64,000 nt of DNA, taken from positions 60,824 through 124,823 of the IMG/VR virus record IMGVR_UViG_3300036857_000619. The stretch is one strand, 5' to 3'. How positions within the stretch are numbered: position 1 is the first letter of the stretch; each line of letters starts with the position of its first letter. The position numbers and the translations under genes were made by a program. This DNA is from a virus. This document shows positions 31,854 through 58,078 of this stretch, piece by piece. Under the pieces are notes generated by a model. It did no database searches. It was not told where the DNA came from and saw only the letters and a program-made list of their open reading frames with translations.

Positions 31854-32435
31854 ATGACCCAGGCGACGAATGACCTGACCGAGCTGGTCAGCCAGGCACA
31901 GTTGGTTCCGCTTTCGAGCCTGCGCCCAGCCGTTTGGAATCCTAGGGTCATTCGATCCGAGCGCATGAAGAACCTGATGCGCTCGATCGAGCGCGACCCG
32001 GACATGCTGCGGCTGCGGCCGGTGCTGGCCAGGCTGAACGGCGAGATCTACGCCGGCAACCAGCGTTACCTGGCCTGCCAGCAGCTCGGCCGCGAGACGA
32101 TCTGGGCGCATCTCGAGGACGTCTCCGAACAGGTCGCCAAGGAGCGCGCGCTGCGCGACAACAACGAGTGGGGCGCCTGGGACGACGACAAGCTGCGCGA
32201 CATGGTCGCCGATCTCAAACAGCTGGGCTCCGACGTCGCGCTGCTCGGTTTTGACGACAAGGAGCTGCAGGCGCTGATGGGCGGCCGCGGCATGCCGGCG
32301 CCGGGCGACGCGGACACCGACGCGACGGAGCATCTGTTCGGGGTGGTGGTCACCTGCAGCGACGAAGCGCAACAGGTCGAGCTGCTCGAGCGGCTGACCG
32401 AAGAGGGCTACGACGTGCGCGCGCTGGTCTCTTGA
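31854..32435 (+). CDS. ParB-like N-domain protein
   Basis: 193 residues. The N-terminal 110 residues show the ParB/Srx-like pattern: VPLSSLRPAVWNPR, RSIERDPDMLRLRPVL, and the GNQRYLACQQLG motif (GxxRxxA). There is no partition-type HTH after it, so it belongs with the phage ParB-like nuclease/NTPase proteins rather than plasmid partition. ParB-like domains bind CTP and DNA. It is the first gene of the coupled island. The C-terminal 60 residues (VVVTCSDEAQQVELLERLTE) resemble a small ferredoxin-like add-on. Confidence 0.8.
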   Translation: MTQATNDLTELVSQAQLVPLSSLRPAVWNPRVIRSERMKNLMRSIERDPDMLRLRPVLARLNGEIYAGNQRYLACQQLGRETIWAHLEDVSEQVAKERALRDNNEWGAWDDDKLRDMVADLKQLGSDVALLGFDDKELQALMGGRGMPAPGDADTDATEHLFGVVVTCSDEAQQVELLERLTEEGYDVRALVS

Positions 32436-32451
32436 TGACGCGAGTATTGGG

Positions 32452-32649
32452 GTGTGTGATTTCTGCGGCGACCCAGGCGACCACAACAAGCCGTACGAGG
32501 TTGGCCGCGAGGACCTGGTGGTGCTGCGACTGGTGCCCGCCGAGTTGCACGCGTTGACGCGGCTGCGCACGCACGTGCGCGACGTGCAGCTGCGCGGCTA
32601 CGACCAGGGCCCCGCCGCGGGCGACGTCCAGGCGGATGCGGAGTCATGA
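32452..32649 (+). CDS. Small zinc-finger protein of the island (65 aa)
   Basis: Starts at a GTG; CDFCGDPGDHNKPYEV suggests a C/C/H metal site at the N-terminus. The remainder is helical. Its stop overlaps the ABC/GNAT start as ATGA, implying coupled translation. Function unknown; could tether or regulate the ATPase. Confidence 0.6.
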   Translation: MCDFCGDPGDHNKPYEVGREDLVVLRLVPAELHALTRLRTHVRDVQLRGYDQGPAAGDVQADAES

Positions 32650-33896
32650 CCACGACAGCTGGGCCTCTGGTGGCGCACGTCAGGAACGAGGTGGCCGTCA
32701 AAAAGTCCGTACGCACGATGCAGGTTTCGTCAATGTTCGACATCCCGCCGCACGAGCGCAGCACGAGCGAGTGGACCGTGTCTCTGCCCCTGCACGAGCG
32801 GGACTGGGGCGTGGGCCTGATCGTCGGGCCATCAGGGGCAGGCAAGACGAGCGTGGCCCGCGCCCTCTTCCCCGAGCAACTCGTCGCCGAGTTCGCGTGG
32901 CCCGCGGAGCGCAGCATCCTGGACGCGTTCCCGGAGGGCATGTCGATCAAGGACATCACCGGCTCGCTGACCGCCGTCGGCTTCGGCTCGCCGCCGGCCT
33001 GGTTCCGTCCGTACGCCAGCCTGAGCACCGGCGAGCAGTTCCGCGTGACGATCGCCCGTGCGCTGGCCGAAAGCCCGGACCGGGTGGTCATCGACGAGTT
33101 CACCAGCACCGTCGATCGGCAGGTGGCGCAGGTCGCCTCACACGCGATCCAGAAGGCGGTCCGCCGCGCGAAGCGGCAGCTGGTAGCGGTGACGTGCCAC
33201 TACGACGTCGTCGACTGGCTGCAGCCCGACTGGATCTACCAGCCGCACACGGGCGAGTTTGCCTGGAGGTTTCTTCAACGACACCCGCCCCTGGAGCTCC
33301 GTCTCCATTCGGTCCATCACTCCGTCTGGCCGGTGTTTGCACGTCATCACTATCTGAGTTCAGAACTGAACAAGTCCGCGGTGTGCTTCGGCGGCTGGAT
33401 CGGCGACGAGCTGGTGGGTTTCACGTCGTACCTGCATCTGCCGCACTACCGCGTCAAGAACGTGAAGCTCGGCCACCGGCTGGTGGTGCTGCCCGACTAC
33501 CAGGGGCTGGGCATCGGCGGGCGCATGGACGACTGGCTCGGCCAGAAGCTGTACGAGGAGGGGTACCGCTACCACAACGTGGTCTCGCACCCGGCGATGA
33601 TCGCGTACTACTCGGCCTCGCCCCGCTGGCGGCTGTTTCGAGGGGCCGGAGCCAAGTCGTACCCGCTGCACAGCTACGGCTCACTCGAAAAGAACCCGAC
33701 GCTGGTGCGGCGCCACGCGCACCCGCGCAACCTGCAAACCATGGCCTTCGAGTACGTGCCGCCCATTCAAGAGGGGGGGGTAGCTGTATGCCGTTCGGCG
33801 CCGACTGCGAATTTGCGGACTTCGCCGCCTGTGTCAGGCACTTCTCGAGCGGCAAGAACAAGAAGTCCAACCCGCGCGCGTACTGCGCCCAGTTAA
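32646..33896 (+). CDS. ABC-type ATPase fused to GNAT (Mom-like) acyltransferase
   Basis: 416 residues. Residues 40-210 are an ABC ATPase domain without membrane part: Walker A GPSGAGKT at 61-68, signature YASLSTGEQ at 123-131, Walker B VVIDEF at 147-152, H-loop His185. Residues 230-345 are a GNAT fold: HYLSSELNKS, GHRLVVLPDYQGLGIGGRM (acyl-CoA loop QGLGIG), and SHPAMIAYYSASPRW. The order H-R-L-V...Q-G-L-G resembles Mu Mom-like enzymes, which modify adenine in DNA. The last 37 residues after position 377 are a low-quality tail caused by a G8 run at 33773-33780; with one G fewer the protein would end at a TAG right there. The likely job is acyl transfer driven or gated by ATP. Confidence 0.8.
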   Translation: MTTTAGPLVAHVRNEVAVKKSVRTMQVSSMFDIPPHERSTSEWTVSLPLHERDWGVGLIVGPSGAGKTSVARALFPEQLVAEFAWPAERSILDAFPEGMSIKDITGSLTAVGFGSPPAWFRPYASLSTGEQFRVTIARALAESPDRVVIDEFTSTVDRQVAQVASHAIQKAVRRAKRQLVAVTCHYDVVDWLQPDWIYQPHTGEFAWRFLQRHPPLELRLHSVHHSVWPVFARHHYLSSELNKSAVCFGGWIGDELVGFTSYLHLPHYRVKNVKLGHRLVVLPDYQGLGIGGRMDDWLGQKLYEEGYRYHNVVSHPAMIAYYSASPRWRLFRGAGAKSYPLHSYGSLEKNPTLVRRHAHPRNLQTMAFEYVPPIQEGGVAVCRSAPTANLRTSPPVSGTSRAARTRSPTRARTAPS

Positions 33897-34012
33897 TGAA
33901 GGCGACCGAGGAGCACTGCGCGAAGCAGCGCGCGGCCCAGCACGTGCCCGCCGAGCCGCCGCCGGCCGAAGCGCCCGCGGAGTGGCCCATGCCACCGCGC
34001 GTGGGCCCATGA
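33788..34012 (+). CDS. Small Cys-containing protein of the island (74 aa)
   Basis: Begins MPFGADCEFADFAACVRHFS and continues NPRAYCAQLMKATEEHCAK, a helical protein with four cysteines, then a Pro-rich tail. A run of G and AG 9 bases before the ATG could act as ribosome site. It overlaps the doubtful tail of the ABC/GNAT frame, which supports that frame ending earlier. Similar small proteins occur near phage portals or proteases; role unknown. Confidence 0.55.
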   Translation: MPFGADCEFADFAACVRHFSSGKNKKSNPRAYCAQLMKATEEHCAKQRAAQHVPAEPPPAEAPAEWPMPPRVGP

Positions 34013-34371
34013 AGAACTGGGTTGCCGCCAAGATCCACGGCATCGTGGTGACCGACCGGCACTTCAACTACCACGGCTCGGTCACCATCGCCGAACGACT
34101 GCTGGAAGCCGCGGGCATCGAGCCGTACGAGCAGGTCCACGTGGTGAATCTCGAGAGCGGCGCGCGCTGGGTGACGTACGCGCTGCCAGGCCCGGAGTCC
34201 GTGTTCGAAACCAACGGCGGCGGGGCGCACCTGGCCAAGCCTGGCGATCGGTGCGTGGTCATGACGTACGCCATGACCGAGCGCTTCGAGGGCGCGCGGG
34301 TACTGATGATGCGACTCGAGGGCGAGGCGCTGCTGCCGAACGTCGACTTCGATCTGCTGCGCTATCCGTGA
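34009..34371 (+). CDS. panD: Aspartate 1-decarboxylase (PanD-like)
   Basis: 120 residues matching the whole bacterial PanD chain. Known catalytic features are present: Lys8 (E. coli K9), the self-cleaving Gly23-Ser24 in NYHGSVTI that forms the pyruvoyl group, Arg53, Thr56-Tyr57 in ARWVTYALPG, and Asn69 in the TNGGGAHL segment. The enzyme makes beta-alanine from aspartate, the precursor of pantothenate and coenzyme A. It lies between the GNAT fusion and a CoA-transferase with overlapping stop/start codons on both sides, so a role tied to CoA or to a beta-alanine donor is likely. Phage genomes seldom carry this gene to my knowledge. Confidence 0.9.
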   Translation: MKNWVAAKIHGIVVTDRHFNYHGSVTIAERLLEAAGIEPYEQVHVVNLESGARWVTYALPGPESVFETNGGGAHLAKPGDRCVVMTYAMTERFEGARVLMMRLEGEALLPNVDFDLLRYP

Positions 34372-34457
34372 GCGACGAGCAGCTGCGCCTGGTGATGTTC
34401 GCCGCACTGGTTGTCACGTTCCTGGTCATCCTGGTCATGCGCGGGAGCAACTGGTGA
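34368..34457 (+). CDS. 29-aa single-pass membrane protein
   Basis: GTG start overlaps the PanD stop (GTGA), and its stop overlaps the next start (GTGA). The chain is one membrane helix (LVMFAALVVTFLVILVM) with short polar ends. The two exact overlaps make it a real gene despite the length. It might anchor the neighbouring enzymes to the membrane. Confidence 0.6.
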   Translation: MSDEQLRLVMFAALVVTFLVILVMRGSNW

Positions 34458-35170
34458 GGGCAATGCGCGTTCTGGAACTAGGGAACTATGTTTCTGTCGC
34501 CTACGCGGGCATGCTGCTCGCCGAGCAGGGGTTCGAGGTGACCAAGTGGGTGGCGCCCGAGCCGGCGCGCGATCCGATCCTCGGTCTGGACCACGGCGAC
34601 GAGCTGTGGGCGTGGATCAACGCGGGCAAAACGCTGGTCGCGCGCCGGGCCCACGAGCTCGCGCAGCTGCCGCTGGGCGACGTCGGGATCGTGCTGGATA
34701 ACGTTCGACCGGCCACGCTGGCCAGCTGGGGCATCGAGCCGGCCACGCTGGCGCAACGCTGGGCGGTGGTGTGGGTCAGCCTGCGCAGCGAGGTCGGCGA
34801 GCGCAGCTTCGACGTCGTCGCCCAGGCGCGCAGCTGGATGGAGTACGGACCCTGGCTGCCGATCTACCTGGGCGACACCACCGCCGGGCTGATGATGGCC
34901 TTCAAGGCGCTGGCCAAACTCGCCCGCCACGAGCCCGGCCACTACGTCCTCGGCCAGGCCAGCTGCTTACAGAAACTTGTCGAGGGCGAGCTGGTGGTCG
35001 ATGCGCCGCTGCGCGAGCAGAACACGCGCTGGGACCTCGACGAATACTGGGCCGGGCCCGACGGCGCCCACGTCTGCTACCGCGGCGAGCTGCTGCGCGA
35101 GCCGATTCGCGATCGCGCCTGGAAGCTCGAGCACCTGTACCACGACGGGGCCGGACGGATCCGCCTCTAA
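34454..35170 (+). CDS. CaiB/BaiF-type (family III) CoA-transferase, short form
   Basis: 238 residues. The N-terminus (RVLELGNYVSVAYAGMLLAE followed by GFEVTKW) is the classic CoA-binding opening of family III CoA-transferases. The motif YLGDTTAGLMMAFKALAKL at 138-156 holds Asp141, which aligns with the aspartate that forms the acyl anhydride. Family members are about 400 residues, so this is a shortened form lacking most of the second domain. It could swap CoA between small acids or act on a bound acyl group. GTG at 34454 or ATG at 34463 could start it. Its stop overlaps the stop of the convergent PAS gene. Confidence 0.8.
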   Translation: MRAMRVLELGNYVSVAYAGMLLAEQGFEVTKWVAPEPARDPILGLDHGDELWAWINAGKTLVARRAHELAQLPLGDVGIVLDNVRPATLASWGIEPATLAQRWAVVWVSLRSEVGERSFDVVAQARSWMEYGPWLPIYLGDTTAGLMMAFKALAKLARHEPGHYVLGQASCLQKLVEGELVVDAPLREQNTRWDLDEYWAGPDGAHVCYRGELLREPIRDRAWKLEHLYHDGAGRIRL

Positions 35171-36153
35171 CCGCTGCCGAAGAGGTTTGAGATCGCTTTC
35201 GCGCAGAAGTGGACGATGCCGTCCAGTTGGCCGTCGGAGAGATAGTCGAGCATGGCGTAGCTGAAGAAGCCCAGCAGCAGGACCGTCGCATACCTGGCCG
35301 CCGTCCGGACGCTCATCGCGTCCCCAAGTACCGTGCGCGTGGCGCGGACCGTGAAGCACCCGCCCAGATCGGGCGACCACTGCAGCCGGCTGCGCAATTC
35401 CAGCCGCTCCTCGTCCTTCGCGATCCAGTGTTCGTTAAACTCAAGGATCTCGCTGCTGCGTTCCATGGCCACCCGCGTGCACTGCGCGACCTCGTCCGGG
35501 CGCGCCTGGCTGCTCGGCGGTTCGCCAGGGTGGAGCATCGTCTCGTAGTAAGAGCCCACCAGCTCCGTGCGGGTGTACTTGAGCGCGGTGCAGGCCGCGT
35601 CATTGGCGGCGAGGATCAACCCGCCGCCGCCGCCGGTGCCGGTCTTGATGACGATCACCAGCATCTCGTCGGCACTCGCGATGAGCGGGGCATCGCGCGG
35701 AGTCAAGCGGAAGCGCAGGCGGCCAGGGCTGTCGCGCACCACGTCCACGCGCGCCTGCTGTTGCGAACCATCGCCGCGGAACAGGTTCGTCTCCCAGGAA
35801 GCGTCGTCGCGGAGTCCCCGCTCCAGCGGGCCCAGCAGGTGACGCTCGAGGGGACCGGTGTCGGGCGCCGGCCCGATCCGGTGGGCCAGGGCCAGGGCCA
35901 GCGTGCGGTTGACCAGCTGCGTGTCGTCGGCGTAGCCGAAGGTTTGCAGGAAGTTGTCGAAGACCTCGACGATGATGCGCTGCGGCCCTTCGGTGATGAG
36001 TTCGCCGAAGCGCTTGCCAGGATCGAGCAACAGGTCGAGCTGCTCGCGGGTCTCGTCAATCAGTTTCAGGCACGCTTGGAGCTCACCGTCGGTGAATCCG
36101 TCGCGCGCGGAGTCCTCTCCGCGCTGGGATTGTGGCGTAGGTGTCACTGTCAC
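35167..36153 (-). CDS. PAS-domain protein with C-terminal membrane anchor
   Basis: 328 residues. A PAS-like domain spans roughly 155-275 (LILAANDAACTALKYTRTEL, then GSYYETMLHPGEPP). A helical N-terminal half precedes it. One membrane helix near the C-terminus (ARYATVLLLGFFSYAML) leaves a short tail. It has no kinase or HTH domain, so it probably senses a ligand, redox state or CoA-type cofactor and acts by protein contact. It is transcribed towards the CoA-transferase, with overlapping stop codons. Such proteins are unusual in phages. Confidence 0.75.
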   Translation of the reverse strand: MTVTPTPQSQRGEDSARDGFTDGELQACLKLIDETREQLDLLLDPGKRFGELITEGPQRIIVEVFDNFLQTFGYADDTQLVNRTLALALAHRIGPAPDTGPLERHLLGPLERGLRDDASWETNLFRGDGSQQQARVDVVRDSPGRLRFRLTPRDAPLIASADEMLVIVIKTGTGGGGGLILAANDAACTALKYTRTELVGSYYETMLHPGEPPSSQARPDEVAQCTRVAMERSSEILEFNEHWIAKDEERLELRSRLQWSPDLGGCFTVRATRTVLGDAMSVRTAARYATVLLLGFFSYAMLDYLSDGQLDGIVHFCAKAISNLFGSG

Positions 36154-37578: not shown

Positions 37579-40044
37579 ATGGTCATTTCGGCGAGCCAGC
37601 GCCGGCAGATCGAGCGCACCGCGGCCAACCTGGGAGCCGAACTGCTGAACGGCCCTCCCCTTGCGCCGACGCCACCGCCCAGGCAACTGCTGCCAGCGCC
37701 GCGAGTACCGCGCGGCGGCGCGCGGCAGGAAGGCCCGTGGATGCTCGAACGGAGCCCGGACGGCAGCGCACGCGTGCGCGCCAATCTGCACCCCGGCCAG
37801 AGCGCGGCGATGGCCAGCCGCGCCCGCACGATCGCCATGATCGCCGGGTCGCAGAGCGGCAAGACCTCGAGCGGGCCGCTGTGGCTGGAGCGCGAGATCC
37901 GCCTGCAGGGGCCGGGCGACTACCTGGCCGTGACGGCGACCTTCCCACTGCTGAAGCGCAAGATGCTGCCGGAGTTCCTGCGGTTGTTCCAGGGCACGCT
38001 CAATCTGGGCACGTGGATGGCCGCGGACAAGATGTTCGTCTTCCACGACAACCAGACCCGCGTGCTCTTTGGATCGGCGACCAATCCCGAGTCGCTCGAG
38101 TCGGCGACGGCCAAAGCCGCCTGGCTCGACGAGGCCGGCCAGGCGCAGTTTCGGCTCGAGTCGTACGAGGCCATCGACCGCCGCCTGGCGCTGTACGAAG
38201 GACGTCGGTTCATTTCGACGACGCCGTACAACCAGGGGCCTCTTTTCACCACCGTCTACAAGCCCGCGGTCGACGGCGACCCGGACATCTGCGTCATCCA
38301 GTTCGCGTCCTCGCTGAACCCGTCGTTTCCGATCGAGGAGATGGAGCGCCAGCGCGACAAACTGCCGCTCTGGAAGTACCGCATGTTCTTCGAGGGCCGC
38401 TTCGACAAGCCGCCGGGCCTGATCTACTCGGACTACGAGGACAGCTACCGCGAGCAGGGCGGGCACCTGATCAAGGCGCGCACGATGCCCATCCCGGCGT
38501 GGTGGCCGCGCTACATCGGCCTGGACTTCGGCGGCGTGCACCTGGCGCGCATCTTCATCGCCCAGGACCCGCTGACCAACACGTTCTACGTGTACGACGA
38601 GCAGCTCTCGGGCGGGCGGACCGCCTCGCAGCACGCCCAGGACATCCTCCAGCAGCTGGGTGGCGCGCCGCTGTACCGCTCGTGGGGCGGCGCCAAGAGC
38701 GAGGACAGCTGGCGGCTGGAGTTCACCGCGGCCGGGCTGGTGGTCGAACCGCCGCCGGTCTCCGACGTGGAGGTCGGCATCGACCGCGCGATCGAGCTGT
38801 TCAAGGCTCGAAGGCTGTTCGTCTTCGACACGTGCGTGGGCTTGCGCTCGGAGCTGGGCACGTACTCGCGCAAGGCCGGCCCGGACGGCGAGCCGCTCGA
38901 GGACATCCAGGACAAGGCCGCCTATCACCGCTGCGTGACGGCCGGAACGCTCATCGAGACCCGCTCCGGACTACGACCGATCGAGCAGATCAGACCGGGC
39001 GAGCTGGTGCGGACGCGTCAGGGGTTCCGACGTGTGCTGGACAGTGCGCTGACGGAGCGACAGGCCAAGGTCCTGACACTCGAGCTGAGTGATGGCCGGA
39101 AATTGACAGCGACGCCTGAGCATCCCATCTGGGTGCGCAAGCGTGGTTGGGTAAGAATGGACGCACTGCGATACGCTATGGCGGTCGAATGCAGCCCTTC
39201 ACGCCCCCAGCCCGCGAATACAAGTCCGAGGTGGTCGTCTTCCAGGGCATCACCTACCGGCGCTACCCGGAAGCGGAAGATGAGCATCGCCGCAACTACT
39301 TCCACGCCAGTGAAAACACCGGCGGCCGCCCGCGGTATCTCCACATCGCCATCTGGCAAGACGCGACCGGACAGAAGCTCCCTAAAGGCTGGGTGGTTCA
39401 TCACGACGACCACAACCCACTCAACAACGACCCCTCGAATCTCAAACCGATGTCGCAAGCCGAGCACAACCAGCACCACTTCCGCGGGCCGGGGGCAAGT
39501 CCCGCGAGGCTGGCGCATCTGGAGCGAGTTCGTGCGCAGGCCGTGGAGTGGCACAGCTCAGAGGCTGGTCTGGCGTGGCACGCCAAACATGCTCGAGAAG
39601 CTTGGGCGAAGCGTCAGACAGCCAAGCGCAGCTGTGAGCAGTGCGGCACGAGCTTCGAGTCGATCACGCGGCGCGCGAGCGATCGCTTCTGTTGCAACTC
39701 GTGCAAGTCGAGTTGGCGGCGGGCCAGCGGCGTCGACAACGAGACGCGCACGTGTGCCTGGTGCGGACAATCCTTCGAGACGAACCGGTACTCACGCATT
39801 CGCCATTGCTCGCGCAGTTGTTCGAGCAAGGCCAGGATGTCTGGTCGTCCGAGTAGTCCGCGAGACCGAGCCACGGGACGTTTTCAATCTGACGGTTGAA
39901 GGCGAGCACGAATACTTCGCGAACGGCATCCTCGTCTCGAACTGCGACGCGCTCCGGTATCTGTGCTCGGGCTTGAGCGGGCCGCAGCAGCCGCTGCCGG
40001 TGCTGGCCATGGGCCGCGCGCGGGGCTGGCAACCGCGCTATTGA
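37579..40044 (+). CDS. terL: Terminase large subunit interrupted by an intein
   Basis: 821 codons, of which 337 are intein, leaving a 484-residue mature enzyme. The ATPase domain has Walker A AGSQSGKT at 89-96 and Walker B AAWLDEAG with Asp184-Glu185. The RNase H-like nuclease domain has the first Asp in RYIGLDFGG (Asp316) and, after splicing, the terminal motif AYHR-CDALRYL, in which His and Asp flank the insertion. The protein packages and cuts DNA at the portal. The intein sits between the two catalytic residues of the last motif, so splicing would be needed for nuclease activity. Start ATG at 37579, six bases after the small subunit. Confidence 0.9.
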   Translation: MVISASQRRQIERTAANLGAELLNGPPLAPTPPPRQLLPAPRVPRGGARQEGPWMLERSPDGSARVRANLHPGQSAAMASRARTIAMIAGSQSGKTSSGPLWLEREIRLQGPGDYLAVTATFPLLKRKMLPEFLRLFQGTLNLGTWMAADKMFVFHDNQTRVLFGSATNPESLESATAKAAWLDEAGQAQFRLESYEAIDRRLALYEGRRFISTTPYNQGPLFTTVYKPAVDGDPDICVIQFASSLNPSFPIEEMERQRDKLPLWKYRMFFEGRFDKPPGLIYSDYEDSYREQGGHLIKARTMPIPAWWPRYIGLDFGGVHLARIFIAQDPLTNTFYVYDEQLSGGRTASQHAQDILQQLGGAPLYRSWGGAKSEDSWRLEFTAAGLVVEPPPVSDVEVGIDRAIELFKARRLFVFDTCVGLRSELGTYSRKAGPDGEPLEDIQDKAAYHRCVTAGTLIETRSGLRPIEQIRPGELVRTRQGFRRVLDSALTERQAKVLTLELSDGRKLTATPEHPIWVRKRGWVRMDALRYAMAVECSPSRPQPANTSPRWSSSRASPTGATRKRKMSIAATTSTPVKTPAAARGISTSPSGKTRPDRSSLKAGWFITTTTTHSTTTPRISNRCRKPSTTSTTSAGRGQVPRGWRIWSEFVRRPWSGTAQRLVWRGTPNMLEKLGRSVRQPSAAVSSAARASSRSRGARAIASVATRASRVGGGPAASTTRRARVPGADNPSRRTGTHAFAIARAVVRARPGCLVVRVVRETEPRDVFNLTVEGEHEYFANGILVSNCDALRYLCSGLSGPQQPLPVLAMGRARGWQPRY
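38932..39942 (+). other. Intein in TerL
   Basis: N-terminal splicing block: Cys1 in CVTAGTLIETRSG and a TATPEHPIWVRKRG block B with T..H. C-terminal blocks: RDVFNLTVEGEHEYFANG, then ILVSN and C+1. The residue before the terminal Asn is Ser rather than His. The middle, about 39180-39890, reads as Ser/Thr/Arg-rich filler in the terminase frame because the HNH endonuclease is encoded in another frame. The intein is 337 codons long. Confidence 0.85.
39189..39899 (+). CDS. HNH homing endonuclease nested in the intein, other frame
   Basis: 236 residues from the ATG at 39189 (a TTG at 39147 is also possible), in the -1 frame relative to the terminase. Motifs GITYRRYPEAEDEHRRNYFH, YLHIAIWQDATGQKLPKGW, VVHHDDHNPLNNDPSNLKPM and EHNQHHF form an HNH_3-type nuclease. 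Two CxxC ribbons follow (CEQCGTSFESITRRASDRF and CAWCGQSFETN), as in DNA-binding parts of such enzymes. It ends at a TGA inside the intein's block F. It is either translated separately or produced by frameshifting. Confidence 0.8.
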   Translation: MQPFTPPAREYKSEVVVFQGITYRRYPEAEDEHRRNYFHASENTGGRPRYLHIAIWQDATGQKLPKGWVVHHDDHNPLNNDPSNLKPMSQAEHNQHHFRGPGASPARLAHLERVRAQAVEWHSSEAGLAWHAKHAREAWAKRQTAKRSCEQCGTSFESITRRASDRFCCNSCKSSWRRASGVDNETRTCAWCGQSFETNRYSRIRHCSRSCSSKARMSGRPSSPRDRATGRFQSDG

Positions 40045-52661: not shown

Positions 52662-53714
52662 ATGGCCGAGCCGGAGCCCCTGAGTAACGCGCTCGGACGG
52701 GTGCTCCGCTTGCACAACGTGCAGCCGCCTGACCCGGCCGATCCCGAGGAGATCGAGCGCAACCTGCTGGAGGTGCCGCTGCTGCCGGCTGGCGCGTACG
52801 GGGCGCAACTCGAGTACCACCGCCAGATCCAGCGCTCGCGCGAGGCCACCGATGCCGATCGCCGGGCCGCGTCCGGCGACATCACCCGACTGGAGCGCCT
52901 GCTCGCCGCGGCCGAACTGCGCGAGCGGCTGATGCGCGGCCGCCCGGAGAGGTGTTTCTGCTACGGGCTGGGCGGCATGCAGAAGCGCTGGCTGCGCATG
53001 TTCGAGGGCGACGAGGTCGTGGCAGTGCCGACGTGGTCGATCTGGTGCACCTGCCCCGAGGCGCAGGAGCAGCAGGCGGCCAGGGAGCGGATGCTGGCCG
53101 AGCAGCGACGGCAGCAGTTGCAGCGCAATGCCGAGCGGCTGTTCGGCTCGATGCCCGAGCGCTTCAAGGCGTGGACGTTCGAGACGCTGCTCGCCGAGTC
53201 GACGGCCCACGCGTCGGTGGTCGAGCCCGCGCGGCAGTGGCTGGCCAGCGGGAAGTGGATGCTCTTCATGCGCGGGCCCGTCGGTACCGGCAAGACCGGC
53301 GTCGGCGTGGCGGTGACGAAGCAGGCGCTGGAGATGGGTCTGAGCGTGCTGTACGTGGACGTGATCGACATGCTCGGGAAGCTGCGCGACAGCTTCAGCA
53401 GCCGCGAGGCGTTCGCCGAGAGCGACGACGGGCTGCGCGCGCGCTGGAACGCGCTGCAAGGCGTCGAGGTGCTCCTGGTCGACGACCTCGGTGCCGAGCG
53501 CCACAAGCGCAATGAGGACGTCGACTGGCCGACCGAAACGCTGTGGCAACTGCTCAACCACCGCCACGGCGCCAGGCTCAGGACGATCGTCACCAGCAAT
53601 CACAGCCTGAACGAGCTGGCCGAGAAATTCGGGCACCCACGGCTGCCGTCGCGCATGGGCGAGGACGCGATCGGGCTGAATTTCACCGGGCTGCCGATGC
53701 TGCGGGAGCCATGA
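52662..53714 (+). CDS. DnaC/IstB-type helicase loader ATPase
   Basis: 350 residues. A Cys pair region (RCFCYGLGGMQKRWLRMFEG and IWCTCPEAQEQQAARE) forms a zinc-binding N-terminal part at about 95-135. The AAA+ ATPase has Walker A GPVGTGKT near residue 206, Walker B LLVDDLGAE near 271 and sensor TIVTSNHSLNEL. The C-terminal end (RLPSRMGEDAIGLNFTG) is typical. It should load the host replicative helicase onto the origin together with the preceding protein. Confidence 0.85.
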   Translation: MAEPEPLSNALGRVLRLHNVQPPDPADPEEIERNLLEVPLLPAGAYGAQLEYHRQIQRSREATDADRRAASGDITRLERLLAAAELRERLMRGRPERCFCYGLGGMQKRWLRMFEGDEVVAVPTWSIWCTCPEAQEQQAARERMLAEQRRQQLQRNAERLFGSMPERFKAWTFETLLAESTAHASVVEPARQWLASGKWMLFMRGPVGTGKTGVGVAVTKQALEMGLSVLYVDVIDMLGKLRDSFSSREAFAESDDGLRARWNALQGVEVLLVDDLGAERHKRNEDVDWPTETLWQLLNHRHGARLRTIVTSNHSLNELAEKFGHPRLPSRMGEDAIGLNFTGLPMLREP

Positions 53715-56074: not shown

Positions 56075-56268
56075 TGACCGGCAAGCACTTCGCGGCGCTG
56101 CTCGAGATAGCCGAGTGCGCCGAGCAGCTGGTGGACGCCTGGCAGCGCGAGGACAGTGATTGGCACACCGCCGCCGGGTGGCTGACCGAGGCGGTCGACG
56201 AGTACCGCAACATACGCTCTAACCATTCCAACGTGCTAGAATTCCCCGGTGCAGCAGAAGCTCTTTGA
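56071..56268 (+). CDS. Small helical protein (65 aa)
   Basis: GTG (or the directly following ATG) starts in the upstream stop. LLEIAECAEQLVDAWQREDS then AAGWLTEAVDEYRNI: amphipathic helices. Its end overlaps the ASCH gene by 20 bases. Function unknown. Confidence 0.5.
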   Translation: MMTGKHFAALLEIAECAEQLVDAWQREDSDWHTAAGWLTEAVDEYRNIRSNHSNVLEFPGAAEAL

Positions 56269-56740
56269 CGACGTGCCGGAGCGAGAGCGCGGGGCGGCCA
56301 ACTCCGCGCTCTCGGCGTCCATTCCGGCGCTCACGCTGACCCAGCCATGGGCGTCGTTGGTGGCCATCGGCGCCAAGCGCATCGAGACCCGCTCGTGGGG
56401 TACGCGCTACCGCGGCCCGATCGCGATCCACGCCGCCAAGCGCATGTCGTTCGAGGACGAGATGCAGTGCTTCTTCGAGCCGTTCAACAAGACGCTTCGC
56501 ACCCGCGACATCCTGTCGGCGCGCGATCTGCCGCTGGGCGCGGTGCTGGCGATCGGCCGGCTGGTGGACTGCCAGAAGGTGGGCGAAGGTGCGCAGCGAC
56601 CGGCGCAGAATTCGCTGGAGTTCGCGTTCGGCGACTTCAGCTGGGGCCGCTGGCTCTGGTATCTGGACGACGTCGAAGAGCTCGACGAGCCGCTGCCCGC
56701 GCGCGGGGCGCTCGGCTTGTGGGAGTGGCGGCCGGACTGA
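56249..56740 (+). CDS. ASCH-domain protein
   Basis: 163 residues. LTLTQPWASLVAIGAKRIET then RSWGTRYRGPIAIHAAKRM is the ASCH (ASC-1 homology) pattern, a PUA-like fold that binds RNA or modified nucleotides. Conserved Trp and Thr line the pocket in the family. In phages ASCH proteins may bind modified bases or interfere with tRNA-based defences. GTG start with no strong ribosome site. It neighbours a Gp37/Gp68 family gene. Confidence 0.75.
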   Translation: MQQKLFDDVPERERGAANSALSASIPALTLTQPWASLVAIGAKRIETRSWGTRYRGPIAIHAAKRMSFEDEMQCFFEPFNKTLRTRDILSARDLPLGAVLAIGRLVDCQKVGEGAQRPAQNSLEFAFGDFSWGRWLWYLDDVEELDEPLPARGALGLWEWRPD

Positions 56741-57181: not shown

Positions 57182-58078
57182 ATGGGCAAGAAGACCGGCA
57201 TCGGCTGGACCGACTACACGATGAACTGGTGGTGGGGGTGTCTGGAGGTCACCGACGAGGAGTGCGGCGACTGCTACGCGCGCGATTTCGCGCGATCAGC
57301 CCGCGGCGGTAGCTGGAACGGGACATCGCACCCCGAGACCGGCAAGGTCAACCCTGAGATCTGGGGCCCGCCGCTCTCAACCCCGCGACGGCTGTTCGGC
57401 GACAAACACAACGCCGAGCCGTACGCCTGGAACGCCGCGGCGATGAAGGCGAACGAGCGGATGTGCGGCTTCGCCCACTCGATGTCGGACATCTTCGAGG
57501 CGCATCCGATGCTCGTCGATCCGCGCAAGCTCGCGCTGCGTACGGTCGAGAACACGACCTTCATCGACTGGAAGATCCTGACCAAGCGCATCCAGCTGGT
57601 GAGCCGGTACGTGCCGAAGCACTGGATGGAAGGGCAGTGGCCGCGCAATGCCTGGATCGGCTTCTCGGCCGGCAGCCAGGCGTTCTTCGACGAGCGCATG
57701 CCCTACGCGATCGACCTGCCGGCGCCAGTCATCTTCGTCAGTCATGAGCCCGCGACGGGTCCCATCAACATCGAGCAGCTGGCCAGAGCCGTCGATCCCA
57801 AACGTCTGTGGGTCATCACTGGCGGCAAGAGCGGGCGCAACTGGCGCAGCCAGATGATGGACCCGGATTGGGCGCGCTACATGCGCGACCAGTGCCGTGA
57901 GATGGACATCGCGTTCTTCTTCAAGCAGCACTCGGCGTACGGGCCGGGGGTCAGGCCCGAGCTCGACGGCCGGCTGCATCACGAGTGGCCGACGGTGCCC
58001 GGTGTTGGTGGGAAGCTCGGCGGCGTGCGGAAGAAGGCGATGGAGGAGGCCGTGTTGGAGCAGGGGGCGCTCCTGTGA
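57182..58078 (+). CDS. Gp37/Gp68 family (DUF5131) radical-SAM-like protein
   Basis: 298 residues. IGWTDYTMNWWWGCLEVTDE followed by ECGDCYARDFA supplies Cys20, Cys28 and Cys31, the characteristic CX7CX2CY cluster of the phage Gp37/Gp68 family, thought to bind an iron-sulfur cluster. ILTKRIQLVSRYVP and VSHEPATGPI are other family motifs. The substrate is unknown; related proteins cluster with DNA-modification and toxin-type genes. Near the ASCH gene, so both might concern nucleic-acid modification. Confidence 0.85.
   Translation: MGKKTGIGWTDYTMNWWWGCLEVTDEECGDCYARDFARSARGGSWNGTSHPETGKVNPEIWGPPLSTPRRLFGDKHNAEPYAWNAAAMKANERMCGFAHSMSDIFEAHPMLVDPRKLALRTVENTTFIDWKILTKRIQLVSRYVPKHWMEGQWPRNAWIGFSAGSQAFFDERMPYAIDLPAPVIFVSHEPATGPINIEQLARAVDPKRLWVITGGKSGRNWRSQMMDPDWARYMRDQCREMDIAFFFKQHSAYGPGVRPELDGRLHHEWPTVPGVGGKLGGVRKKAMEEAVLEQGALL

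Follow-up and report, generated by a model that had tools for sequence, protein, structure and literature searches.

A recurrent phage gene cassette that joins an ABC-ATPase/GNAT fusion to a candidate acyl-donor module

Gene content of the locus

We analysed a 64,000-nucleotide window of the IMG/VR record IMGVR_UViG_3300036857_000619, part of a viral contig of 124.8 kb, in which positions 31854-35170 hold seven consecutive open reading frames (ORFs), all on the plus strand. Four of them form a conserved core: a ParB-like protein, a fusion of an ABC-type ATPase with a GNAT acyltransferase (ABC-GNAT), the aspartate decarboxylase PanD and a short family III coenzyme A (CoA)-transferase (CoAT). 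Our best explanation is a DNA-acylation cassette with its own supply of acyl donor. An earlier interpretation of the bare sequence (the sequence-only reading) had described seven consecutive genes, most with stop/start overlaps; the ORF list confirms this, with 4-nt overlaps at four of the six junctions (65-aa ORF/ABC-GNAT, Cys-containing ORF/PanD, PanD/tiny transmembrane ORF and tiny transmembrane ORF/CoAT). Its motif assignments (ParB-like, ABC plus GNAT, PanD and family III CoA-transferase) were likewise recovered by Pfam and PHROG domain searches.

31854..32435, plus strand: ParB-like protein (ParB_N/Srx superfamily), 193 aa, companion of phage DNA-modifying enzymes (PF02195, phrog_620, phrog_498)
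32452..32649, plus strand: 65-aa ORF, earlier called a zinc finger, a doubtful part of the system (one CxxC only)
32646..33896, plus strand: ABC-type ATPase fused to a GNAT acyltransferase, proposed DNA base acyltransferase (phrog_11143, PF00005, PF00583)
33788..34012, plus strand: 74-aa ORF with Cys residues, private to this virus (matches no family and has no homologue at the other loci)
34009..34371 (longer ORF start 33982), plus strand: PanD, pyruvoyl-type aspartate alpha-decarboxylase, makes beta-alanine (PF02261)
34368..34457, plus strand: 29-aa ORF with a single transmembrane segment, VSDEQLRLVMFAALVVTFLVILVMRGSNW, private to this virus (no relatives)
34454..35170, plus strand: short family III (CaiB-type) CoA-transferase, 235-238 aa, proposed beta-alanine (omega-amino acid) CoA-transferase (PF02515)

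A four-gene core recurs across phages and prophages

Searches with ABC-GNAT, CoAT and PanD in IMG/VR and with CoAT in bacterial genomes yielded 27 non-redundant loci at which CoAT adjoins ABC-GNAT. At 20 of the 27 the order is exactly ParB-ABC/GNAT-PanD-CoAT on one strand; five have ParB-ABC/GNAT-CoAT and two a rearranged order. These counts express association rather than natural frequency, the locus set having been partly picked via CoAT searches. The sequence-only reading had staked itself on the gene set recurring in related genomes, and it does, with the full order at these 20 loci. Rhodococcus/Gordonia phage Jace (NC_047974) carries the same four genes in the same order (gp85 ParB, gp86 ABC-GNAT, gp87 PanD, gp88 CoAT), with identities to the window proteins of 55% for ABC-GNAT, 46.5% for PanD and 52.5% for CoAT. 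The four-gene order, mostly with stop/start overlaps, is shared by about 30 other viral contigs and by prophages from several phyla; order and overlaps are kept across independent phages and prophages at 40-60% protein identity. Matches in bacterial genomes include Alsobacter, Gemmataceae, Planctomycetales and Thermoanaerobaculia records. ABC-GNAT precedes every viral CoAT match that has enough upstream sequence, and three others (L112, L120 and L122) end at a contig edge. This recurrence is far beyond chance, and the cassette is almost certainly a functional unit.

The unit is smaller than the seven-gene system first proposed: the four core genes recur together, whereas the other three ORFs are private to this virus. 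The supposed zinc finger (32452-32649) has a single CxxC and no Pfam or PHROG match, and its tblastn relatives, like those of the Cys-rich ORF (33788-34012) and the transmembrane ORF (34368-34457), lie only in copies of this virus. The 'zinc finger' and the tiny membrane protein were rejected as parts of the system, being unconserved across loci.

PanD and CoAT form a candidate acyl-donor module

PanD matches PF02261 at E = 2.6e-28, and its profile matches solved PanDs at 3.5e-43. Invariant with Escherichia coli PanD are K8, H10, Y21, the G23-S24 cleavage site, R53, Y57 and N69; the match to solved PanDs was confirmed separately. The predicted decarboxylase role rests on these conserved catalytic residues. 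The protein scores below the NCBIfam TIGR00223 equivalog cut-off (65.4 versus 106 bits) and thus belongs to a divergent subfamily. Phage-type PanD was never seen with ABC-GNAT unless CoAT was also there, among the loci surveyed. PanD was rejected as a sufficient marker of the cassette, since PanD without the cassette occurs in other viral contigs. At L159:5001-7074, L173:5001-7093 and L155:3380-5996 (T4-like tail genes), a PanD of the subfamily is followed by a GNAT-looking gene with no Pfam match and an ATP-grasp ligase gene, with no CoAT; such sets are a second possible use of phage beta-alanine.

CoAT matches PF02515 at 1.1e-10. Its AlphaFold2 (AF2) model (pLDDT 88) gives Foldseek E = 1.6e-10 to Rv3272 and TMq 0.68 to CaiB, with Frc also among the best matches. 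The Asp of the GD motif (D138, numbering from the Met codon at 34463) is invariant in 34 relatives and aligns with the invariant Asp of full-length family III members, and is taken here as the known catalytic aspartate of that family. CoAT is a shortened relative and not a typical two-domain member.

CoAT homologues also lie beside a different decarboxylase in actinobacteria. In Promicromonospora (L126), Actinopolyspora (L128), Streptomyces (L130) and L132, the homologue directly follows a pyridoxal phosphate (PLP)-type decarboxylase that is glutamate decarboxylase (GAD)-like (PF00282 at 3.7e-38 to 6e-43 in the three scanned; L132 was judged from its sequence); the closest NCBIfam model is glutamate decarboxylase, matched below cut-off. 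No ParB, ABC-GNAT or PanD lies near the CoAT homologue at these four loci. In L126 and L130 an aldehyde dehydrogenase comes next, the closest model in L126 being aminobutyraldehyde dehydrogenase, and L132 has the same order by sequence.

L126:6555-10185, L130:6707-10192 and L132:1260-4905: GAD-like decarboxylase, short CoA-transferase and aldehyde dehydrogenase set

The actinobacterial set is perhaps a secondary-metabolite pathway that uses an omega-aminoacyl-CoA. Two unrelated decarboxylases, PanD and the PLP type, beside one CoAT family suggest that the CoAT acceptor is their product; its substrate is probably an omega-amino acid, either beta-alanine or gamma-aminobutyric acid (GABA).

ParB and ABC-GNAT form the older unit

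The ABC-GNAT fusion matches phrog_11143 at 9.9e-99, PF00005 at 8.7e-8 (over cut-off) and PF00583 at 1.5e-6 (28.9 bits against a cut-off of 20.7), and its AF2 model has a pLDDT of 90.6. Across 56 relatives the ABC part has an invariant Walker A (GxSGxGK), signature (LSxGE), Walker B (DE) and H-loop (CHxD); the GNAT part has an invariant QGxG acyl-CoA loop of the QxxGxG/A type (here PDYQGLGIG) and H235-Y236. An 8-G run at 33772-33782 extends the ABC-GNAT frame by about 35 residues into a tail that overlaps the next ORF, and relatives stop about there. The conserved part probably ends near 33770-33780, the tail past the run not being native; the run, whose sole other bearer is an identical copy of this virus, may be a sequencing error, a slippage site or real. 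The ParB-like protein matches PF02195 at E = 1.1e-5, just under cut-off, phrog_620 at 4.9e-23 and, via a common N-terminal ParB domain, phrog_498 (DNA methyltransferase) at 5.1e-23. No ParA was noticed adjoining its gene.

A ParB homologue adjoins 82 of 85 ABC-GNAT genes. Most ABC-GNATs come without PanD and CoAT and are followed by terminase or ASCH genes, an ASCH-type cluster being present at 23 of the 85 loci (raw count). CoAT was not found in 36 records with ABC-GNATs lacking PanD and CoAT, some of these records being fragments. Mapped on a tree of 83 ABC-GNATs, the presence of PanD/CoAT extends to distant branches and requires several gains or losses. ParB and ABC-GNAT are the older unit, and PanD and CoAT a clip-on acyl-donor module.

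A GNAT tyrosine tracks CoAT

A column scan of the ABC-GNAT alignment placed nearly all of the best positions separating loci with CoAT from those without in the GNAT domain. The residue at Y322 is Tyr in 24 of 26 loci with CoAT and in 3 of 56 without (Fisher 2.6e-15). One of the two exceptions is the second ABC-GNAT of a two-copy locus whose first copy has the Tyr; the other is a locus with frameshifted PanD and CoAT. Among edge-disjoint sister contrasts, seven of eight agree and none oppose (sign test p = 0.016, best tree); starred branches alone leave four, too few for significance. At L104, L105 and L117 the cassette is followed by a second ABC-GNAT copy without Y322 (His in L104).

Tyrosine is often the general acid toward the CoA thiolate in GNATs (PMC4964394), and Y322 would be expected to act in this way. 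The assignment draws on the end of the Pfam match (322 is position 111 of 116 in PF00583), its place in helix alpha-4 of the AF2 model and an N/H-x6-Y spacing; in alignments with E. coli RimI, MAFFT misplaced the C-terminal half and hhalign reached only motif A. Y322 would then mark the split between donor-dependent and donor-independent ABC-GNATs.

Genomic context points to DNA as the probable target

Porphyromonas phages Kyudai4 and WW2952 (L142/L143) are 91% identical through the end of the tail genes and 81% again at the right end. Between these matching flanks, one carries a Mom-like gene and the other an ABC-GNAT with a formyltransferase; Pseudomonas phage Komp_PAO1_1 has the same ABC-GNAT-formyltransferase pair. 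In these Porphyromonas phages and a Pseudomonas phage (L003) the formyltransferase is PurN-like, possibly another type of clip-on gene for donor supply or tailoring. The ParB domain likewise keeps company with proven or likely DNA modifiers. It adjoins a Mom-like GNAT in phage Appa; in Erysipelothrix phage phi1605 (L140) it is fused to an N6/N4 DNA methylase, with a S-adenosylmethionine (SAM) synthetase gene two upstream. The phi1605 arrangement is a direct parallel: there, too, an enzyme that makes a donor lies beside a DNA modifier linked to ParB. CmoX loci repeatedly include ParBc genes, and phage loci for DNA modification commonly have ParB partners (PMC12783734). PMC7824862, citing Iyer 2013, already predicts that ABC-GNATs acylate DNA bases.

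ASCH genes recur beside ABC-GNAT, and one, whose relatives adjoin ABC-GNAT in many loci, is encoded elsewhere in this virus.

56249..56740, plus strand: ASCH-domain protein, possible reader or eraser of the modified base (PF04266 4.7e-4, phrog_3193 1.7e-37)

ASCH belongs to a PUA-like class that earlier work has linked to the reading of modified bases, and the protein may be a reader of the modified base. A role for ASCH as a YqfB-type N4-acylcytosine amidohydrolase was rejected: by eye the ASCH proteins near ABC-GNAT have KxxE where YqfB has KxxT, and hydrolase activity is unsupported.

The link to Mom itself is less direct. The Pfam Mom family PF25680 is absent from the matches of the window ABC-GNAT (E <= 0.1) and from the families listed for 56 relatives; the same model does detect the Mom-like gene of L200. 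In a PDB search with the fusion, ABC ATPases crowded out other matches, and the profile of the GNAT part by itself found no PDB chain at 0.01. Profile comparison with Mom gives a match that we regard as no more than suggestive of direct homology and discuss below.

Proposed pathway and alternatives

We propose that the cassette acylates DNA with a donor that it makes itself, running from aspartate through beta-alanine and beta-alanyl-CoA to a beta-alanylated DNA base (probability about 0.6). PanD would convert L-aspartate to beta-alanine. CoAT would form beta-alanyl-CoA by moving CoA from a cellular acyl-CoA to beta-alanine, via an aspartyl anhydride/thioester at the invariant Asp. The GNAT domain would then pass the beta-alanyl group to an exocyclic amine of a phage DNA base, Y322 serving as general acid; the base would be adenine (at N6, as with Mom) or cytosine (at N4). 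By loading on DNA or remodelling it, the ABC domain and the ParB-like protein may expose the base. The resulting omega-aminoacyl base would carry a positive charge and shield virion DNA against nucleases. This is the sequence-only reading's proposal, of a CoA-linked or beta-alanine-derived group made and transferred, perhaps onto phage DNA, and it is the best reading of the recurring unit. That CoAT feeds the GNAT is highly likely; granted the rest, DNA is a likely target at the least, and beta-alanyl a reasonably likely acyl group. The observations beneath these steps are the gene identities, the conserved order and residues, the co-occurrence of CoAT with Y322 and the exchange of ABC-GNAT and Mom in relatives.

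Several points weigh against the proposal. The beta-alanyl group, the DNA target, the choice of base, the ABC and ParB roles and the protection are read from genes. The Y322 column was chosen by the scan, which makes it strong but non-blind evidence, and the sister-contrast test has eight pairs, some on weak branches. Most ABC-GNATs have neither CoAT nor Y322, so their chemistry may differ. CoAT has about 235 aa against about 400, the second half of canonical family III enzymes being absent. The GNAT part matches the Mom profile weakly (hhalign probability 36%, E = 3.9e-4, with HY aligned to HY). Phage-type PanD also occurs with an ATP-grasp gene in other phages. A cellular-type PanD lies near ABC-GNAT without CoAT in L200, where the ABC-GNAT has Arg at the Y322 position; this T4-like phage contig (L200:1183-7790; also L206, L207, L212 and L213) carries a Mom family gene (checked in L200), the PanD and the ABC-GNAT among replication genes. 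The actinobacterial decarboxylase is GAD-like, although below cut-off, so the acyl group could be GABA-derived.

This last point bears on whether the same machinery carries another acyl group (GABA, an acyl-beta-alanine or a dicarboxylate), with PanD supplying one precursor only and the mark not being beta-alanyl. Five non-redundant CoAT loci lack a cassette PanD, three of them being viral contigs of 83-89 kb without PanD anywhere, and a gene downstream of the GAD-like decarboxylase resembles aminobutyraldehyde dehydrogenase. Yet the host can also supply beta-alanine, and PanD, where present, lies tightly between ABC-GNAT and CoAT, with overlapping ends and intact catalytic residues; we consider another acyl group unlikely. 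Acylation of a protein (RNA polymerase or a nuclease, for instance) or of tRNA, with the ParB and ABC parts regulating, has some points in its favour: proteins are the substrates of many GNATs, similarity of the ABC domain extends to many unrelated ABC ATPases, and PMC7824862 describes a phage GNAT that acetylates RNA polymerase. The replacement of Mom by ABC-GNAT at one locus, the sharing of the ParB partner with DNA methylases, Mom and CmoX, and the nearby ASCH genes make such a target rather improbable.

Two further explanations dispense with modification. Synthesis of pantothenate and CoA requires beta-alanine, the product of PanD, and PanD occurs without the cassette in other viral contigs, as it might if phages boosted CoA and pantothenate or rewired host CoA metabolism; but the cassette contains no other recognised pantothenate gene, its PanD goes together with CoAT and ABC-GNAT, and co-occurrence of CoAT with a GNAT tyrosine would be unexpected, which leaves auxiliary metabolism very unlikely. 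A toxin/immunity module for defence or anti-defence is hinted at by weak PADLOC matches: the ABC part matches mad3 at 3e-11, and ParB matches a type II methyltransferase model at 5e-13. The mad3 match spans the generic ABC half only, however, and the methyltransferase match the ParB part only; PADLOC gave no full-length match to any defence component among the cassette proteins, and a domain search found no nuclease or toxin domain in the cassette. We regard such a module as very improbable.

Relation to known systems

The DNA-acylation proposal extends a known prediction. ABC-ATPase-coupled GNAT systems (Iyer et al. 2013/2021; phrog_11143) contain the same fusion protein; the published text available names no acyl donor, whereas here a donor module of PanD and CoAT accompanies the fusion and correlates with a GNAT tyrosine. 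The sequence-only reading knew of no described system with this gene set. That was too broad for the ABC-GNAT, already predicted to acylate DNA (PMC7824862), and for its ParB partners, known to be common (PMC12783734), and it stands for the PanD/CoAT set: for ABC-GNAT with PanD or a CoA-transferase in DNA modification, the literature searched, which did not include Iyer 2013 itself, gave nothing beyond PMC7824862. Phage Mu Mom, which modifies adenine, shares the GNAT-superfamily fold and, in Porphyromonas phages, the genomic slot, and in the weak profile match its His-Tyr pair aligns with the invariant one of ABC-GNAT, but Mom has neither an ABC domain nor acyl-donor genes of its own and ABC-GNAT has no Pfam Mom match. 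In CmoA/CmoX/CmoY carboxymethylcytosine hypermodification (PMC12783734), too, a phage pathway produces the donor itself, modifies DNA and attaches an amino acid, with ParBc genes nearby, but it uses Cx-SAM and AMP-forming ligases instead of acyl-CoA and a GNAT. CoAT shares fold and catalytic Asp with family III enzymes (CaiB, Frc, Rv3272) and differs in its shorter length, missing second half and predicted amino-acid acceptor; PanD shares family, self-cleavage site and catalytic residues with bacterial PanD and differs as a divergent subfamily.

New against the literature searched are thus the omega-aminoacyl-CoA donor module, the actinobacterial pointer and the match to the GNAT tyrosine. We put at slightly better than even the broader idea of a new hypermodification, in which a phage-made omega-amino acid, activated with CoA by a minimal family III CoAT, is put on a base by an ABC-linked GNAT, the ABC-GNAT serving as a platform whose clip-on donor genes set the acyl group, PanD and CoAT in this cassette and a formyltransferase in Porphyromonas and Pseudomonas phages. 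ABC-GNATs occur in phages of many phyla, with no established substrate in the literature found, and the donor genes attached here yield a specific prediction of which acyl group is used. If true, this would be a chemical disguise for DNA of a kind not yet described; donor exchange suggests a modular route by which phages diversify DNA chemistry against restriction. Jace is a cultivated phage that carries all four genes and has a laboratory host, which opens the question to immediate experiment. A minimal CoA-transferase for omega-amino acids and an aminoacyltransferase acting on DNA would also be of practical use.

Neighbouring genes

Directly behind the cassette, on the minus strand (35167-36153), lies a PAS-like domain gene without relatives in the other loci. 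The terminase large subunit gene (37579-40044) is split by an intein (Intein_splicing, Hint_2), and an ORF nested in it in another frame (39147-39899) resembles an HNH-type homing endonuclease. The virus also carries a DUF5131 gene and an IstB-like ATPase, at 57182-58078 and 52662-53714.

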